Numbered from the stretch's first letter, positions 1 to 7,883 are shown. The stretch is 64,000 nt of DNA from Synechococcus sp. M16.1 (GCF_014279895.1 NZ_CP047954.1:2046001-2110000); one strand, 5' to 3'. Notes: generated by a model not told the origin, from the letters alone. Numbers and translations: made by a program.

Positions 1-1367
1 GGCACCAAGGGCGCGCAGGCCAGCCAGGGCTGCAGGCAACTGGGGGTGAAACCGACCACCGCGTCGAGATAGGGGTCATCCACTTGGTTTTCAGCCAGCA
101 TCGCCCCCTTCACCAGAGCATTGGACTGCTGCAACAGGCTTTCCCAGCTGGCGCGCTCCTCCTGCGGCAGGTCATCGAGACCGTGGAGAAACATGTCACG
201 GCGAAAGGCGGGATAGCCACCGAACAGCTCATCGGAGCCTTCGCCGGTCATCACAACCTTGTAATCCACGTCGTTGACGTGGCGGCTCATCAAGAACTTG
301 GCCACCGCCAGGGTGTTGTAGATCGTTCGCTCCGCATGCCAGATGGTGCGCTCCATGTGGCCGTAGAGCTCCTGGCCCGAGAGCCGCATCAAATCCTGCT
401 CAGCGCCGGTGGCCTCGGCCATCTCACGAGCAATCGGCGACTCGTCGTAACGAGCATCATCAAATCCAATCGTGAACGCCTTCACCGGTGCCTGGCTCAC
501 GGCTGATGCCAAGCCGAGAATCGAACAGCTGTCGATGCCGCCGGAGAGATAACAACCCACCGGAACATCAGCCACCATGCGCAGCTCAACGGCCTCCAGC
601 AACGCCGCACGAACGGCAGCGATGTGATCGGCTTCAGTTCGCTTGAGGTCCCGCTCGTCCTTTCGCGGGAAGTCGACATCCCAGTAGGTCGACTCCGACA
701 CCTGCAGCCGCCCGTTCACCCGTTGCACCTTGAGCACATGGCCGGGCTTCACCTGATGCACCCCAGCAAAGGCCGTGGTGCCGGGAACCATGGTCTGCAT
801 CAATTGATGGAACAGACCCTCCGAGGTGAAGCGTCGCTCCACCGCCGGATGGGCGAACAGCACCTTCAACTCGGAACCGAACACCAGACCCTCCGGCGTC
901 ATCGCCCAGTACTGCGGTTTGATGCCGAAGCGATCCCGCACCAGGTAAAGGCAGTCTTCGGCCCGATCAAACAAGGCGAAGGCGAACTCACCGCGCAACA
1001 GAGGCAGGGTCGCCTCTAAGCCCTGGCGTTGGTACAGCCGCAGCAGGATCTCGGAATCGCTCTTGCTGCTGAAGCGCACCCCCTGGGCGGTGAGGTCAGC
1101 CCTGATTCGCTGGAAGTCGTAGAACTCACCGTTGTGGGCCATCAACACCTCACCGTCATCGGTGAGGAAGGGCTGCCGGGCCCGTGACTCATTCAAGTCA
1201 ATGATCGAAAGGCGGGCATGGCAGAAGCCGACGCCGGCCTGATCGAGCACCTCAACGCCGAAACCATCAGGCCCGCGATGGGCCTGAATCGCCGCCATGT
1301 TGACCAGCAGCTGGCGATCCGCCGTTTGTTGACGGTCTGCGTTGAAAACCCCTCCGATTCCACACAT
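1..1367 (-). CDS. asnB: Asparagine synthase (glutamine-hydrolysing) family protein, 3' end outside window
   Basis: The start codon at 1367 gives MCGIGGVF, so Cys2 is the N-terminal nucleophile of a class II glutamine amidotransferase. RGPDGFG, SIIDL and the HNGEFYDF block follow in the glutaminase domain. The synthetase domain carries the SGGIDS pyrophosphate loop and GEGSDELFGGYP. About 455 codons are visible and the C-terminal end lies beyond base 1; the family is usually about 600 residues or more. Family role: ATP-dependent amide transfer from glutamine to a carboxylate, classically aspartate to asparagine. It starts only 9 bases after the stop of the carbamoyltransferase-like gene on the same strand, so the two are probably co-transcribed. 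Because that neighbour is odd, the acceptor need not be aspartate. Family is secure; substrate is inferred. Confidence 0.9.
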   Translation of the reverse strand, partial: MCGIGGVFNADRQQTADRQLLVNMAAIQAHRGPDGFGVEVLDQAGVGFCHARLSIIDLNESRARQPFLTDDGEVLMAHNGEFYDFQRIRADLTAQGVRFSSKSDSEILLRLYQRQGLEATLPLLRGEFAFALFDRAEDCLYLVRDRFGIKPQYWAMTPEGLVFGSELKVLFAHPAVERRFTSEGLFHQLMQTMVPGTTAFAGVHQVKPGHVLKVQRVNGRLQVSESTYWDVDFPRKDERDLKRTEADHIAAVRAALLEAVELRMVADVPVGCYLSGGIDSCSILGLASAVSQAPVKAFTIGFDDARYDESPIAREMAEATGAEQDLMRLSGQELYGHMERTIWHAERTIYNTLAVAKFLMSRHVNDVDYKVVMTGEGSDELFGGYPAFRRDMFLHGLDDLPQEERASWESLLQQSNALVKGAMLAENQVDDPYLDAVVGFTPSCLQPWLACAPLV

Positions 1368-1376
1368 CAGCCCGCC

Positions 1377-2492
1377 TCAGATCACATCCATCACGCGTTC
1401 GGCCCGATCCACCATGCAGGTGAGCAGGGCCATGCGCAGGAACACGGCTCCCCTGGCCTGGCTGAAATACCAGTTATGGGGCGTGTCATCCAGGCAGGTG
1501 CTGAGTTCCGCTCCCCGCGCCAAGGGATGGAGCACGATCGCTTCCGGTTTGAACGGCATGTCGCGGGTGAGGCGGAATCCTCCGCCGTGCACTTCATAGG
1601 AGTCGCCGACCCAGGCAATGGCATTGATGTAAACGACATCCAAGTCGGGCACTTCAGCCTGAAGATCCGTGCTGGAGCGCACCTTCATCCCACAAGCTTC
1701 AAGCTCCTCCAACTGTCCTGGGTCGAACAGCGGCTGATCCGGCTCCAACCCGGGGGCGTGAATCACCACCACCTCGTCCACGGTCTGCGGGAATTTGGCC
1801 AGGATCCTCAACAGGGAGCGAACCGTTCGCATCCGCGAAGGGATTCCGACGATCCCAATGCGAATCCGATCAGAGGGTGCCACTTCAGCTTCAGCAAGCT
1901 TGGGGCGCCACTTGAAGATCGTGTACAGATCGGCCATCGCCTGGGTGGGATGCTCATCGATCCCATTTCCAGCGTTGATGATCGGAATCCGCAGGGTTGA
2001 CGTCATCGCGTAGACGGCACCGGGATCGCTATCCCGAAGCACCACACAATCGCCGTAGTTGTTGAACATATGGGCGACATCTTCAAGAGATTCGCCCTTG
2101 GCGATCCCTGTGGTGGCCCTATCGGTGATGTTGATGGAGGTACCACCGAGTCGGTGCCAGGCACTGTCAAAGGACAGCCGCGTGCGCGTGCTTGGTTCGT
2201 AAAACGCGTTGATCAGAATCTTGCCGGTGAGTGGCGTGTTGTGACGGCAATAGCGATCTGGATTGCTCTCAAACTTCGCCGCCAGGCGAAACACCTGCAA
2301 CAAAACCTCGGGGCGAAACGGTTGGATCGACACCACGTGCTGATCCACCAAATCCTTCAAAGGTTCAACATCTTCAGCAATGGCAGCCAGCAGCTCCTGG
2401 GGTTGGTTCTGCCCGTAGACATCGGGCCCCATCGGCTCAAACCGAATCTGAACCGAAGACGCGTCCACAACTGCTGTTTTGGCCTGTGCCAT
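1377..2492 (-). CDS. Aspartate/ornithine carbamoyltransferase family protein with altered amino-acid site
   Basis: 371 aa, longer than the roughly 310 of bacterial PyrB, with an N-terminal extension of about 60 residues. The carbamoyl-phosphate site is complete: PSTRTR, the KGE lysine, an Arg after VVL, HPTQ and RTVRS. The aspartate side differs. The segment matching VTRVQ of E. coli PyrB (Arg229, Gln231) reads INAIA, and HPLPR reads HPLAR. The C-terminal TPHNWYF block is again PyrB-like. It may therefore carbamoylate, or de-carbamoylate, something other than aspartate. A housekeeping pyrB is expected elsewhere in the genome, but that cannot be checked here. It leads into asnB with a 9-base gap, and a weak NtcA-like box lies upstream at 2625-2638. 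Confidence 0.85.
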   Translation of the reverse strand: MAQAKTAVVDASSVQIRFEPMGPDVYGQNQPQELLAAIAEDVEPLKDLVDQHVVSIQPFRPEVLLQVFRLAAKFESNPDRYCRHNTPLTGKILINAFYEPSTRTRLSFDSAWHRLGGTSINITDRATTGIAKGESLEDVAHMFNNYGDCVVLRDSDPGAVYAMTSTLRIPIINAGNGIDEHPTQAMADLYTIFKWRPKLAEAEVAPSDRIRIGIVGIPSRMRTVRSLLRILAKFPQTVDEVVVIHAPGLEPDQPLFDPGQLEELEACGMKVRSSTDLQAEVPDLDVVYINAIAWVGDSYEVHGGGFRLTRDMPFKPEAIVLHPLARGAELSTCLDDTPHNWYFSQARGAVFLRMALLTCMVDRAERVMDVI

Positions 2493-2624
2493 AGCGGGAT
2501 CGGGTCAACACTCTGTTTGCCAAACCGAGTGCTAGAGCCAGGAACTACATCTTTCACCGGTAACAACAACCACACTGCTGCGTCCACGAAGAAGCAGCTT
2601 CTTAAGCAAAGATCCGGAAAAAAC

Positions 2625-2638
2625 GTTCAGTGCGTTAC
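2625..2638 (-). promoter_or_regulatory. Weak NtcA-like box upstream of the carbamoyltransferase-like gene
   Basis: The plus strand reads GTTCAGTGCGTTAC, i.e. GTA-N8-AAC on the coding strand, one base off the NtcA consensus GTA-N8-TAC. It lies in the 161-base gap, about 140 bases before the start. No good -10 hexamer sits at the expected 22-23 base spacing. The pattern is common by chance, so this is only a candidate. Confidence 0.25.
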
Positions 2639-2653
2639 CCATCCGTGCAGGCC

Positions 2654-2803
2654 TCACCACACACGACCGTTCCGCCACTCCACCCACCAGATCAGCAGCA
2701 GCACGAGCACCGACAGCACCAGGGCGAACTGACTGGCCACCAGCAAAAACTGAAAGCCAGAGAGACCAACAAGGCCAGCCATCAAAGGAAGCATTTGGAT
2801 CAT
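2654..2803 (-). CDS. Small membrane protein, translationally coupled to the symporter
   Basis: This 49-aa ORF starts MIQMLPLMAGL and ends VEWRNGRVW. Its ATG overlaps the TGA of the symporter gene (ATGA), a sign of coupled translation. Nearly the whole protein is hydrophobic: a GLVGLSG stretch and then one long Leu/Val-rich membrane helix, with a charged tail after Trp-Trp. I recognise no family. It may be a small subunit or stabiliser of the symporter. Evidence for a real gene is the coupling and the clean membrane profile; length alone would not support it. Confidence 0.5.
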   Translation of the reverse strand: MIQMLPLMAGLVGLSGFQFLLVASQFALVLSVLVLLLIWWVEWRNGRVW

Positions 2804-4230
2804 CCCTCCTCCTGCAACAAGGTGAAGTCGAAGCGTTCCGGCCAGAACTGACTGCCCATCAGCATCACAATCGCCGACACGGCCGCCGAAAACACAGCAG
2901 CGCAGTAAGGCGCGATCAGCCCATAGGCGAGCAGGCCCACAACGCTGCCGGCAAGCATGGCCGCAATGGCAGCCGTGCGGTTGGCTGTACGCCAGTACAA
3001 ACCGCAGGCCACAGGCCAAACCGTGGAGGCCACCAGGGCACCGGTGAAGAACAGCACCGACGCCAGCGAATCCAGCCGCGGCCAGGACAGCGCCAGGGTG
3101 ATGACGGCCAATCCCACCACCATCAACCGCGCCGCCTGCTTGAGCTGCAGGTCGCTGGCCTGGGGCCTCAACAGGCGGAAGTACACATCCTCCGCCAACA
3201 GATCGGCGGTGGATGCCAGCAGGGAATCGAGGGTGGAGGTGAGCGAGGCAAACACCACCACAAACACCAAGGCTGCGCCACCCGCCCCGAGCAGATCGGC
3301 TGCCATCACAGGGAACACCATGTTCACCTGCTCGAGAGGCAACTCACGGGCCAGGGCCACCAGTCCGATGGAGCCCGTCACCATCGGCACGCTCATCCAG
3401 GCGATCCCCCCCAACACGAAGGAGGTCATCACCACCGAGCGCCGGCTGGCGAACACCCGGGACCACCAGATGTTGTTGTGAAACACCTCGCCCATCGAAA
3501 AGAGAGCGGAATTCCAGGCGATCAACAAGCCCGCCGGCAGCAGCAGATCAAGCCGATCGGGATGCCGGGCCAGCAAGGAGGCATGCACCTCAGGCATCGG
3601 GAATTGACGGAAGGCAAGCACCGCCACCACCGCCAGCAACACCATGATCAATAGCGACTGAATGAAATCGGTGCCGATCACAGCCCGCATTCCGCCGAAC
3701 AGGGTGTAGACGGTGGCAACACCAATCACCACCACCATTCCCACGTGGTAATCGAAGCCTGAAAGGGCCTGCAGCAGCAGGCCAGCACCCATCGCCTGGG
3801 TCATCAGAAAGCCCAGGGTGTAGATCGCGGTGATCAACATGAACACCCACCAGGCCAGACGCCCGTAGCGCAGGCGAATGAAGTCGCCGCTGGTGCGCCC
3901 GTTGGGCATCAACTGCTTGATCCGCGAGGCCAGGGGGGCGAACAGAATCAAGCCAAGCCCTGCCAGGGCATAGCTGAACATGCCCCAAAGGCCGGTTTTG
4001 TAGCCGAATTCAGGGGCGAGCAGGGTGGTGTTGCCGGTGACCCAGGAGGCCATCAACGTGGCCGTACTCAGGGCCAGCCCGATGTTGCGCCCCGCCAGCA
4101 TGTAGTCGTCGGCATTGCCTTGACCGCGCCGGCCCCAGGCAATCCCCAGCGCCACCCAGAGAACAGAGAACAGCACCACCAACGCCCAGGCGATCCCGGG
4201 CTGAAGGAAGGGAACCGAGTCAGCGGACAT
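2800..4230 (-). CDS. Sodium:solute symporter family (SSS) permease
   Basis: 476 aa with about 13 hydrophobic segments. Early MLAGRNIGLALSTATLMASW and the WVTGNTTLLAPEFGY region fit the SSS/SSF fold, as do GGMRAVIGTDFIQ in the middle and ASLTSTLDSLLASTADLLAED later. The family couples uptake of small solutes (urea, proline, pantothenate, acetate and others) to sodium; the solute here cannot be read from sequence. Start ATG at 4230 overlaps the small upstream ORF by 11 bases, and the stop overlaps the small downstream ORF. The order symporter, carbamoyltransferase-like, asnB on one strand hints at a nitrogen-containing substrate, but a 161-base gap separates the symporter part from the enzymes. 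Confidence 0.85.
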   Translation of the reverse strand: MSADSVPFLQPGIAWALVVLFSVLWVALGIAWGRRGQGNADDYMLAGRNIGLALSTATLMASWVTGNTTLLAPEFGYKTGLWGMFSYALAGLGLILFAPLASRIKQLMPNGRTSGDFIRLRYGRLAWWVFMLITAIYTLGFLMTQAMGAGLLLQALSGFDYHVGMVVVIGVATVYTLFGGMRAVIGTDFIQSLLIMVLLAVVAVLAFRQFPMPEVHASLLARHPDRLDLLLPAGLLIAWNSALFSMGEVFHNNIWWSRVFASRRSVVMTSFVLGGIAWMSVPMVTGSIGLVALARELPLEQVNMVFPVMAADLLGAGGAALVFVVVFASLTSTLDSLLASTADLLAEDVYFRLLRPQASDLQLKQAARLMVVGLAVITLALSWPRLDSLASVLFFTGALVASTVWPVACGLYWRTANRTAAIAAMLAGSVVGLLAYGLIAPYCAAVFSAAVSAIVMLMGSQFWPERFDFTLLQEEG

Positions 4231-4438
4231 CCGTCGACCCCCTGCGATTCCAGTACAGGTGTCCGCGCAGAATCATCACCACCGTCGCCGCAGTCACAAC
4301 GGCACCAAGGGCAAAGATCAGACGCGCCCAGAGCAATTCATCCAAGGCGAAGGGCGTTTGAACTCCAGAAACAGGTAAGCAAAAGAGGCTTCCCAGCTCC
4401 GGCTGTCGCCTTCGATTTAGGTGCCTTCGGATACCCAA
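4220..4438 (-). CDS. Small hydrophobic ORF preceding the symporter
   Basis: The frame is open for 72 codons from a TTG at 4438. A second TTG at 4345 would give a 41-residue protein starting at LDELLWARL. One membrane segment (LIFALGAVVTAATVVMIL) is followed by a basic tail ending NRRGSTDVR. The stop lies 11 bases inside the symporter start. SSS carriers such as PanF and ActP are often preceded by a small membrane protein (YhdT, YjcH), and this arrangement looks similar; I see no clear sequence match to either. The start is uncertain. Confidence 0.4.
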   Translation of the reverse strand: MGIRRHLNRRRQPELGSLFCLPVSGVQTPFALDELLWARLIFALGAVVTAATVVMILRGHLYWNRRGSTDVR

Positions 4439-4546
4439 ACATCAGGCGATCAGTGCTCGGTCGCCTGAAATTGCGGAATGTGTAGCAACCACCACCCGAA
4501 GTGGAGTGGGGCGACGCCTTGGATAAACCTCGATTGTGCGATCAGG

Positions 4547-6022
4547 ATGTTCACCGACTACAAACCGACAGTCGGCTTCGACGAATATTTCTGCGGTGAA
4601 ACGGCCACACCACGCGCCGATCTGGCCCCACTACTCGCATCACTGGGGCAGATGGGATTGCCCGAGCTCAACCGCAGCCATGCTTCGGCCAGTCAGCTGC
4701 TGCGTCGCCTCGGCGCCACCTTCCGTCTCAACGATTCCGGCCTCAAAGGCAGCGAACGAATTCTCCCCTTCGATCCCTTGCCTCGGCTGATCGGCCGCAG
4801 CGACTGGATCACCCTGGAGCGGGGACTGCTGCAACGCCTGGAAGCCATCGACTGCTTCCTCGCTGACATCTATGGCCCCCAGCAGATCCTCAACGACGGT
4901 GTGATCCCACGGGAAGACGTGGAAAGTTCCTCCGGTTGGCGACCTCAGATGCAGGGCATCAGCCTGCCCCTCAACCGCTGGTGCCACATCTCCGGGCTTG
5001 ACCTGATCCGCGACGGCAAGGGCACCTGGCGGGTGTTGGAGGACAACCTGCGCTGTCCTTCTGGGGTGGCCTACTTCCTCGAGAACCGTCGGGTGATGAA
5101 GCGATTGTTCTCTGGCCTGTTCGAAGGCCGTGCCGTTCAACCGATCGACGACTATCCCTCCCATCTGCTGCGCACCCTTCAGGACCTGGCGCCCTGGAGT
5201 GACACCCCCCGCGTGGCGATCTTGACGCCCGGGGTGTTCAACAGCGCCTATTTCGAACACAGCTACCTGGCCCAAGAAATGGGCATTCACCTGGTGGAGG
5301 GGCGCGATCTGGTGTGCGAAGGCGGCCGGGTGTGGATGCGCAGCACCAATGGCCTGGAACCCGTGGATGTGATCTACCGACGCATCGACGATGATTTTCT
5401 TGATCCCACCGTGTTCCGCAAGGACTCGATGCTGGGGGTGCCGGGCCTGATCGACGTGCTGCGGCAAGGACGGGTCGCCATCGCCAACGCCCCTGGCACC
5501 GGCATCGCCGACGACAAGCTGATCTATGCCCACGTGCCGGCGATGATCCGCTACTACCTCGATGAGGAGCCGATCATCGAGAACGTTCCCACCTACCTCT
5601 GTGCCCGGCCAGACGATCAGCGCTATGTGCTCGAACACCTCGAGCAACTGGTGGTGAAGTCGGTGGCGGAAGCCGGCGGCTACGGAATGCTGATCGGCCC
5701 CCAGGCCAGCCGATCGGAGCTAGCGGACTTCGACACGAAGATCCGTGCGAATCCCCGCAACTTCATTGCGCAGCCCACGCTGCAACTCTCCACCGTGCCA
5801 TCCCTCAGTGACGGTGAGCTCTACCCCTGCCATGTGGATCTGCGCCCCTATGTGCTGCGCGGCGCAAGCAGCTGGGTGAGTCCAGGTGGGCTGACGCGCG
5901 TGGCCCTCAAGCGGGGCTCACTGGTGGTGAATTCGTCCCAGGGCGGCGGCTGCAAGGACACCTGGATCGTCGACGACCAACCGATGGCAGCACCGCAAGC
6001 CCAGGAGGCTGTGCCGTGCTGA
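4547..6022 (+). CDS. Circularly permuted ATP-grasp protein (DUF404/DUF407 type)
   Basis: 491 aa from ATG at 4547 (MFTDYKPTVGFDEYF), chosen because relatives begin close to the YxPxxxFDEMF block; an upstream TTG at 4478 would add 23 unlikely residues. Motifs include GLKGSERILPFDPLPR, DIYGPQQIL, a DNLRCPSGVAYFLENR stretch, and EAGGYGMLIGP late in the chain as the nucleotide-binding part. The family is thought to ligate amino acids or small peptides, but no substrate is established. It overlaps the alpha-E gene by 7 bases and is followed by a transglutaminase, a widely conserved trio of unknown pathway. The family call is firm and the reaction is not known. Confidence 0.88.
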   Translation: MFTDYKPTVGFDEYFCGETATPRADLAPLLASLGQMGLPELNRSHASASQLLRRLGATFRLNDSGLKGSERILPFDPLPRLIGRSDWITLERGLLQRLEAIDCFLADIYGPQQILNDGVIPREDVESSSGWRPQMQGISLPLNRWCHISGLDLIRDGKGTWRVLEDNLRCPSGVAYFLENRRVMKRLFSGLFEGRAVQPIDDYPSHLLRTLQDLAPWSDTPRVAILTPGVFNSAYFEHSYLAQEMGIHLVEGRDLVCEGGRVWMRSTNGLEPVDVIYRRIDDDFLDPTVFRKDSMLGVPGLIDVLRQGRVAIANAPGTGIADDKLIYAHVPAMIRYYLDEEPIIENVPTYLCARPDDQRYVLEHLEQLVVKSVAEAGGYGMLIGPQASRSELADFDTKIRANPRNFIAQPTLQLSTVPSLSDGELYPCHVDLRPYVLRGASSWVSPGGLTRVALKRGSLVVNSSQGGGCKDTWIVDDQPMAAPQAQEAVPC

Positions 6023-7011
6023 GTCGCGTTGCCGATTCGCTCTACTGGATCAACCGCTATCTGGAACGGGCCGAAAACATCTCGCGCTTTCTGGAAGTGA
6101 GTGAAGCGATGGCATTGGACTGTCCTCCGGGCAGCGCCGAACCGTGGCTGCCGCTGGTGGAGGTGACGGGAGATCGCCACCGCTTCGATACGGCCTACCC
6201 CGGTGCCACGCCCAAACAGGTGGTGCGCTTCCTGCTGCTGGACCGCAGCAATCCCAACAGCATCGTGAGTTGCATTGCGATGGCCCGGGAAAACGCACGG
6301 CAGATCAGGGATGTGATCACCACGGAGATGTGGGAGCAGATCAATGATCTGCACTGGAGCCTGCAGGACGACGAAGACATCTGGCGGGAACCGGTGCAGG
6401 AGCAACTGCGGATCATCCGCCGCGGCTGCCAGCTCGTGTACGGGATCACCGACACCACTTTGAGCCGTGATCTGAGTTGGCTGTTTAGTCAGCTGGGACG
6501 TCTGATCGAACGAGCCGATAAAACCTCCCGCATCCTCGACGTCAAATACTTCCTGCTGCTGCCCTCCCCTGAGGAGGTGGGCGGCGTGCTGGATGAACTG
6601 CAATGGATCACCCTGCTGCGCACAGCGGGGGCTTATCAGATGTACCGGCAGAGCATGCAGCACGCGATCAGCCCTGCCTCCGTGGCCCGCTTTTTGCTGC
6701 TGGACCCCATCTTTCCTCGCTCGGTGCGGTACTGCCTGCAGGGCATCAGCGACACGTTGCAACAGATTCAGCAGCAGCCAAACCAAGACACCCCGGATGA
6801 CCTCGACTGTTTGCGCGGACAGCTCCTGGCCCGCTGGAGCTATGTGCGGATCGACAACCTGATCGAAGCCGGTCTGCATGAAGCCATTGACCAGCTTCAG
6901 CAGGACCTCAACCAACTCCACAACCTGATCCAGACCCGCTACTTCACTAGCGCCGACCTCCGTTCCATCCCCACCGATCCTGCATGCGTGCTCTCATCGT
7001 TCACCGCCTGA
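6016..7011 (+). CDS. Alpha-E domain protein (DUF403)
   Basis: 331 aa, GTG start at 6016 inside the end of the ATP-grasp gene. The N-terminus MLSRVADSLYWINRYLERAENISRF contains the family's hallmark SLYWxxRYxERAE block. The chain is predicted almost wholly alpha-helical, with repeated Arg/Glu-rich helices such as LIERADKTSRILDVKYF. The family is found beside permuted ATP-grasp and transglutaminase genes, as here. It has no demonstrated enzymatic activity and may be a partner of the ATP-grasp enzyme. Its end overlaps the start of the transglutaminase gene by 28 bases, supporting a three-gene operon. Confidence 0.88.
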   Translation: MLSRVADSLYWINRYLERAENISRFLEVSEAMALDCPPGSAEPWLPLVEVTGDRHRFDTAYPGATPKQVVRFLLLDRSNPNSIVSCIAMARENARQIRDVITTEMWEQINDLHWSLQDDEDIWREPVQEQLRIIRRGCQLVYGITDTTLSRDLSWLFSQLGRLIERADKTSRILDVKYFLLLPSPEEVGGVLDELQWITLLRTAGAYQMYRQSMQHAISPASVARFLLLDPIFPRSVRYCLQGISDTLQQIQQQPNQDTPDDLDCLRGQLLARWSYVRIDNLIEAGLHEAIDQLQQDLNQLHNLIQTRYFTSADLRSIPTDPACVLSSFTA

Positions 7012-7883
7012 CGTATCGGTATGAGGCCCCCGTTTTCCTCGGGGAACATCGCCTGTGTTTGAGGCCTCGGGGGCAGGGGTTTCAGACCCTGCTGGAGCAT
7101 CAACTCAGCGTGCTGCCGGAACCGGAGCAACGTCGGGAACTGGTGGCCGCCAGCGGCGACGAAATCCAACGGCTGCGTTTTCTCGGCAGCACTGATGAAT
7201 TGGTCTTTGAGGCCCGCAGCCTGGTGGAGACCCGGCCAGCACCCCCGCTGGAAAGCTGCTTCAACGGATTGGAACCACCCCTGCCCTACCCACGGGGCCA
7301 GCTCAACAGCGACCTTCAGGGGGCCCTGGAGGGCTGGTTGCCCAACGGCCAGCACGAACCCGCGGCCATCGACCTCACCCAGGAAGCCCTGATGGGCAGC
7401 AACCAGCAAACCCTGGCTTTTCTGAAGCAACTGATTGAGCTGATTCAGGAGCGGGTGAAATACACCCAACGCCATGTGGGCCCCGCCTGGCCGGCGGGTC
7501 GAACTCTGCGCGAACGTATCGGCTCTTGCCGTGATCTGGCCATGCTGATGGTGGCCTGCTGCCGTGTGGTGGGTCTCCCCGCCCGATTTGTGAGCGGCTA
7601 TCAACTGCAGCAACCTCCCCCGAAGGATTACGACCTGCATGCCTGGGCAGAGGTTTACCTGCCGGGAGCGGGCTGGCGCGGCTTTGACCCCAGTGCCGGG
7701 ATGGAAGTCAACGAGCGCTACGTGGTGCTGGCCACCTCCTCCAAGCCGGAACTCACCGCAGCTGTGAGCGGCAGCTTCAGCGGCCCCCCGGGAACAAACA
7801 GTGAATTGACCTGGCAGATTCAGATCAGCGAAGAAGCCTCCGCAACGGAAACCCCTTCACGCAACCTGGTTCAGGCCGCCTGA
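6984..7883 (+). CDS. Transglutaminase-like cysteine protease domain protein
   Basis: 299 aa. An N-terminal beta-rich domain with the LTYRYEAPV start is typical of bacterial transglutaminase-like proteins. The core holds Cys182 in GSCRDLAML, His219 in DLHAWAEVYLP and Asp235 in GFDPSAG, the Cys-His-Asp triad. No signal peptide is visible, so it is probably cytoplasmic. Family members cleave or form amide bonds. In this trio it could remove what the ATP-grasp enzyme adds, which is inference. The 3' end overlaps the convergent cupin gene by 13 bases. Confidence 0.88.
   Translation: MRALIVHRLTYRYEAPVFLGEHRLCLRPRGQGFQTLLEHQLSVLPEPEQRRELVAASGDEIQRLRFLGSTDELVFEARSLVETRPAPPLESCFNGLEPPLPYPRGQLNSDLQGALEGWLPNGQHEPAAIDLTQEALMGSNQQTLAFLKQLIELIQERVKYTQRHVGPAWPAGRTLRERIGSCRDLAMLMVACCRVVGLPARFVSGYQLQQPPPKDYDLHAWAEVYLPGAGWRGFDPSAGMEVNERYVVLATSSKPELTAAVSGSFSGPPGTNSELTWQIQISEEASATETPSRNLVQAA

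Follow-up and report, generated by a model that had tools for sequence, protein, structure and literature searches.

A third carbamoyltransferase that has lost the aspartate site, and its AsnB-like partner, in Synechococcus sp. M16.1: candidate genes for the osmolyte N-carbamoyl-L-glutamine 1-amide

Our analysis favors a model whereby the third carbamoyltransferase of Synechococcus sp. M16.1 (CT; positions 1377-2492, minus strand, of the 64,000-nt stretch analyzed here, referred to as the window) and the AsnB-like amidotransferase encoded behind it form the core of an operon for the biosynthesis of N-carbamoyl-L-glutamine 1-amide (CGA), a salt-protecting solute isolated in 1991 from one purple bacterium. 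In this model, which we consider reasonably likely, CT carbamoylates glutamine, the AsnB-like enzyme amidates the product, hydrolases recycle it, and a symporter recaptures it. The gene pair probably encodes neither an aspartate carbamoyltransferase nor an asparagine synthetase: CT has lost the aspartate site, the genome contains a separate PyrB, the two genes are conserved in their linkage and co-occurrence, and the pair is present in the bacterium that produces CGA. From these observations we infer CGA as the exact product; glutamine as the acceptor, the order of the steps, the roles of the hydrolases and the symporter, and a function as osmolyte in cyanobacteria are proposed on the same grounds. 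The window contains the following genes of the operon:

4220..4438, minus strand: small one-helix membrane ORF of 72 aa, overlapping the symporter start (translation)
2800..4230, minus strand: sodium:solute symporter (SSS; Pfam SSF, 109 bits)
2654..2803, minus strand: small one-helix membrane ORF of 49 aa, with an ATGA overlap with the symporter stop (translation)
1377..2492, minus strand: CT, 371 aa, with the PyrB fold, an intact carbamoyl-phosphate site and a lost aspartate pocket (profiles, alignment, tree, structure match)
1..1367, minus strand: glutamine-dependent amidotransferase of the AsnB type, of whose 674 aa the N-terminal 455 are encoded in the window (TIGR01536, 429 bits)

The ORFs and the Pfam match bear out the layout described in an earlier note on this DNA, which had placed asnB 9 bases after CT and an SSS symporter with small flanking ORFs before it. 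The AsnB-like ORF starts at 1367 on the minus strand and runs past the window edge; read from the genome, the full-length gene (L004:9343-11367) encodes 674 aa. Further 3', outside the window, the M16.1 locus L004 contains a gene for an M20 hydrolase (429 aa) from the hydantoinase/carbamoylase family, an overlapping gene for a 244-aa DUF1028 protein, a GATase gene, and then urease genes. Since the AsnB-like gene runs past the edge and the M20 hydrolase and DUF1028 genes lie beyond it, the window covers only the leading portion of the operon. The 72-aa ORF at 4220-4438 has no Pfam or NCBIfam match and has a counterpart in most marine Synechococcus loci that extend that far; it is possibly an accessory subunit. 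In many Gammaproteobacteria (loci L073-L105), the gene immediately before that of the symporter encodes a fast-evolving protein of 140-180 aa with an apparent signal peptide and a C-terminal helix, which may correspond to the Synechococcus ORF. Divergent from the operon, positions 4478-7883 of the window encode a circularly permuted ATP-grasp protein (Pfam) and two others, likely of the alpha-E and transglutaminase types, which together look like an ordinary co-occurring trio.

In the alignment with E. coli PyrB, CT keeps S52, T53, R54, T55, K84, R105, H134, Q137, R167 and R296, has the two alanines of YINAIAW at the positions of R229 and Q231, reads HPLAR where PyrB has HPLPR, and carries G in place of S80. 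These features, several of which the earlier note had read from the M16.1 sequence, recur throughout the 79 aligned members of the CT family. The carbamoyl-phosphate site (STRT, Arg105, His134, Gln137) is present in 79/79, and the full set of Ser52, Thr53, Arg54, Thr55, Lys84, Arg105, His134, Gln137, Arg167 and Arg296 is kept, with one row gapped at 296. S80G, T228N, G166M and P268A occur in every member, position 229 is A in 73, S in five and T in one, position 231 is A, S, V or T in all 79, and the 240s loop is shortened. The same changes in the aspartate site across 79 members thus mark a conserved family trait rather than chance. In PALA complexes of PyrB, Arg229 binds the aspartate beta-carboxylate and Arg167 the alpha-carboxylate. 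Retention of Arg167 together with loss of the Arg229 site therefore suggests, at the level of sequence, that the acceptor is an alpha-amino acid with an uncharged side chain; aspartate is very unlikely, in line with the acceptor other than aspartate that had been proposed for this enzyme.

CT reaches the cut-off of none of the NCBIfam carbamoyltransferase models it matched, with scores of 191.6 against 236.95 for TIGR00670 (PyrB), 95.8 against 280.85 for TIGR00658 (ArgF), where NAIAWVG stands in place of TDVWxSMG, and 28.9 against 500 for TIGR03316 (YgeW). Scores for the YgeW-family models (29-32 bits against cut-offs of 453-500) are negligible, and we rejected a YgeW identity. The M16.1 genome encodes three OTCace proteins, a normal ArgF (G000:C1:751466), a normal PyrB (274334) and CT, so that the second, normal pyrB called for by the earlier note is indeed present. 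In a quick maximum-likelihood tree, 36 CT representatives group as a single clade (SH-aLRT 98). Within the family, this clade lies toward PyrB and is separate from the PyrB and ArgF proteins that these genomes also encode; its cyanobacterial branch adjoins Ectothiorhodospiraceae with a support of 93. An AlphaFold2 model of CT (mean pLDDT 80.6) has aspartate carbamoyltransferases as its best structural matches. This overall PyrB fold, and an AsnB-like protein above the TIGR01536 cut-off, would also be seen if the pair were paralogues of an ordinary aspartate carbamoyltransferase and asparagine synthetase with some residues changed. We regard this as highly improbable given the separate PyrB, the TIGR00670 score of 192 against 237, and the loss of Arg229, Gln231 and Ser80 in 79/79 members, whereas Arg229 and Gln231 are kept in 20/20 comparison PyrB proteins of these genomes and their relatives. 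CT defines a carbamoyltransferase subfamily, with a predicted new acceptor, that automatic annotation likely names aspartate carbamoyltransferase.

The AsnB-like protein passes TIGR01536 (429 against a cut-off of 267 bits) and scores 304 against a cut-off of 570 for TIGR03104, the model for the amidotransferase of N-acetylglutaminylglutamine amide (NAGGN) synthesis. In an alignment of 75 AsnB-like sequences, the glutaminase and ATP sites are retained, with Cys1, NGE, Asp98, SGGxDS, GEGSDE and Lys449 invariant (Lys449 with one gap). Loss of the E. coli aspartate-binding segment TTIRA was dropped as evidence because the segment is also shortened in other AsnB-like proteins and is therefore not diagnostic. 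No asparaginyl-tRNA synthetase (AsnRS) scores over the cut-off in the M16.1 genome, so there is no obvious need for free asparagine in translation. Two cyanobacteria (G070 and G094; loci L165:9123-12121 and L164:8474-10504) have a full-length orthologue of 60% identity and no CT, and the AsnB-like enzyme may therefore accept other N-capped substrates there. In L165, the orthologue is divergent from a DUF1028-like gene, an arrangement hinting that DUF1028 is the opposing amidase.

The CT-AsnB pair is conserved far beyond the marine Synechococcus in which the earlier note had suggested looking for it. In a scan of species genomes, CT relatives were found in marine Synechococcus, Cyanobium and Prochlorococcus, in Kangiella, Aliikangiella, Pleionea, Pseudoalteromonas, Alteromonas, Bowmanella, Thalassotalea and Shewanella, and in Thioalkalivibrio, Thiorhodospira, Ectothiorhodospira and Nitrosomonas halophila; going by genus, most named carriers are marine, halophilic or haloalkaliphilic. 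Three carbamoyltransferase family members are present in 14 of the 16 carrier genomes checked (the other two are drafts with two members), and two in each of seven genomes that lack CT. In an evenly drawn sample of 274 Gammaproteobacteria, CT and AsnB orthologues occur in the identical 16 genomes, which would have a chance of ~10^-25 if the genes were independent, as adjacent genes are not; because the two mostly lie side by side and move together, their co-occurrence is not an independent test. Among cyanobacterial relatives, CT is present in 27 of 98 and AsnB in 26 of those 27, the remaining one being cut by a contig end. Thiorhodospira sibirica has both genes unlinked, 0.7 Mb apart. Beside CT, AsnB is found nearly everywhere, the M20 hydrolase in most carriers, and a MarR-type regulator, with no NCBIfam model over cut-off, in several. 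The SSS symporter adjoins CT in most carriers except Prochlorococcus and Ectothiorhodospira; DUF1028 is found there in cyanobacteria, and an isochorismatase-fold hydrolase in Ectothiorhodospira and Thioalkalivibrio. The chromosomal location of the cluster varies within Prochlorococcus, as for a gene set carried on islands: L050 and L054 have it next to a dxr-like gene, and L048 and L062 at other sites. Synechococcus- and Prochlorococcus-like copies in loci labeled Gammaproteobacteria CPC316 (L041) and Trichodesmium MAG_R03 (L049) are probably misbinned MAG contigs.

The link to CGA comes from its producer. CGA has so far been reported from one organism, Ectothiorhodospira marismortui (PMC3857566; PMC1224877), which has been equated with E. 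mobilis (PMC1224877), and in the NCBI taxonomy the former name resolves to the latter as the same species. E. mobilis DSM 237 carries the CT-AsnB pair, and its CT is the only carbamoyltransferase besides PyrB and ArgF. The cluster has the order MarR-HyuC-isochorismatase-CT-AsnB and is flanked by genes for sucrose synthase (TIGR02470, 1187 bits) and a fructokinase-like protein. In the literature searched, no genes for CGA were named, and searches on DUF1028, on the CT-AsnB pair in Synechococcus and on the salt response of these genes gave nothing useful; the literature examined on salinity and metabolites of marine Synechococcus or Prochlorococcus has no mention of CGA, and the main text of the salinity papers examined has none of the CT operon genes. 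The locus supplies two candidate genes for CGA synthesis along with a proposed recycling hydrolase and a possible transporter, and with them a testable answer to the question of this orphan osmolyte.

Based on these data, we propose that CT would move the carbamoyl group of carbamoyl phosphate onto the alpha-amino group of L-glutamine, with Arg167 still holding the alpha-carboxylate and the former side-chain site (Arg229, Gln231, Ser80) now small and neutral. The AsnB-like enzyme would then activate the free 1-carboxylate with ATP and amidate it with glutamine nitrogen, giving an uncharged solute. When osmotic pressure falls or nitrogen is needed, CGA may be degraded by the M20 N-carbamoylase together with an amidase, which would be DUF1028 in cyanobacteria and the isochorismatase-fold hydrolase in Ectothiorhodospiraceae, and the SSS symporter would re-import the solute. 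In marine Synechococcus and Cyanobium, as well as in most gammaproteobacterial carriers found, where identity is 40-49%, a symporter orthologue adjoins CT, and we propose that the symporter is an importer or recapture system for the carbamoylated solute.

The Synechococcus M20 hydrolase has as its best NCBIfam match the N-carbamyl-L-glutamate amidohydrolase ErtE (NF058540; 434 bits, below the equivalog cut-off of 520); it closely follows CT occurrence in picocyanobacteria, and a relative of 49-56% identity is present without CT in other cyanobacteria. For the E. mobilis isochorismatase, the best match is biuret amidohydrolase (70 bits, below the equivalog cut-off of 370), an activity that would be suited to cleaving off an amide adjacent to a ureido group. 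A hydantoinase/carbamoylase-family hydrolase and DUF1028 in the operon, the symporter in front and urease nearby could also indicate a catabolic operon in which an imported ureide is degraded and CT runs backwards to give carbamoyl phosphate. We consider this improbable: CT is strictly linked to a glutamine amidotransferase that depends on ATP and retains all catalytic residues, an enzyme that builds amides, and this argues for biosynthesis; moreover, no carbamate kinase was found among the neighbors examined, the YgeW-family scores are negligible, and a few loci, e.g., L095, L105 and L113, have the pair with no hydrolase beside it. Of the two routes offered in the earlier note, amidation of the CT product by AsnB is thus the best reading and probably right, and the catabolic route to carbamoyl phosphate is disfavored.

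A close rival to the CGA operon, unlikely in our estimation, retains both N-carbamoylation and carboxylate amidation and differs in using another neutral amino acid or in yielding a nitrogen reserve or signal instead of an osmolyte. R229A, Q231A and S80G say only that the acceptor is neutral and probably larger than aspartate, and a cyanobacterial operon with an N-carbamoylase and DUF1028 that ends near urease genes would fit nitrogen recycling. Against this, CGA is the only such compound reported from a carrier, the neighbors in E. mobilis are sucrose osmolyte genes, and the hydrolase of the nearest characterized family acts on N-carbamyl-glutamate. We count against CGA that the acceptor could be another neutral amino acid, that the hydrolase matches lie under equivalog cut-offs, and that G070 and G094 have AsnB without CT. 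Moreover, CGA is rich in nitrogen (4 N per 6 C), a surprising choice of solute where nitrogen is scarce, and glucosylglycerol, glucosylglycerate or betaine are already available to marine strains. The operon hydrolases could, on the other hand, make CGA a recyclable nitrogen store as well.

A Glutamine-II riboswitch (RF01704, 69 bits; L004:6655-6716, plus strand, genome C1 about 2042655) is located just outside the window between the DUF1028 and GATase genes, followed by a gene for a ~55-aa peptide, and Prochlorococcus MIT 9314 has a copy ~640 nt upstream of CT (L062:9251-9312). We rejected it as operon regulator: it is on the other strand, ahead of a small peptide gene of its own, and most of the Prochlorococcus examined lack it near the cluster. 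The urease gene contains a 5' ureB antisense sRNA (RF02514, 158 bits; L004:4236-4522, minus strand). A sigma-70 promoter scan gave nothing above chance.

Assigning the pair to CGA would predict this solute in many marine and haloalkaliphilic bacteria, including the dominant ocean cyanobacteria, which are thought to rely largely on nitrogen-poor solutes. Marine Synechococcus and Prochlorococcus are among the most abundant phototrophs on Earth, and we tentatively speculate, with somewhat less confidence than we have in the operon's function, that they make CGA by a dedicated glutamine carbamoyltransferase and amidotransferase shared with halophilic Gammaproteobacteria, and that it serves them both in balancing osmotic pressure and in storing nitrogen in recyclable form. 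Among 67 freshwater picocyanobacteria, glucosylglycerol synthesis genes were reported in only two, one of them Cyanobium ATX 6A2 (PMC9361551); this strain carries the CT cluster.

Finally, we compare the operon with known systems. CT shares with PyrB the fold (~26-33% identity to solved structures in the structural match), the carbamoyl-phosphate site, Lys84, Arg167 and Arg296, and differs from it by the absence of Arg229, Gln231 and Ser80, a 240s loop cut to NAIAW-VG, an N-terminal extension of 45-50 aa, a separate clade and the presence of a second PyrB in the genome. The short acceptor loop, similar in length (NAIAWVG beside TDVWxSMG), is shared with ArgF; unlike ArgF, CT keeps the PyrB-type Lys84 and Arg167, and it scores far under the ArgF cut-off and falls in a separate clade. 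YgeW, the knotted carbamoyltransferase, likewise has an unusual acceptor and in E. coli adjoins a hydantoinase-type gene, but it lacks an AsnB partner there, its acceptor region differs, and CT has a negligible score against it. ErtE and the hydantoinase/carbamoylase family are the best model for the operon M20 hydrolase, although the score remains below the equivalog cut-off and the gene context differs. The proposed pathway is closest in logic to the NAGGN system, in which a glutamine compound is N-capped, its carboxylate is amidated by an AsnB-like enzyme and a metallopeptidase serves turnover, giving an uncharged osmolyte. The CT-linked amidotransferase is separated from that system by its TIGR03104 score; both kinds of amidotransferase coexist in E. 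mobilis, and the NAGGN type is also present in T. sibirica, another carrier of the CT-AsnB pair. Thus, the two pathways would follow the same logic with different caps, an acetyl group in NAGGN and, in CGA, a carbamoyl group added by a carbamoyltransferase.
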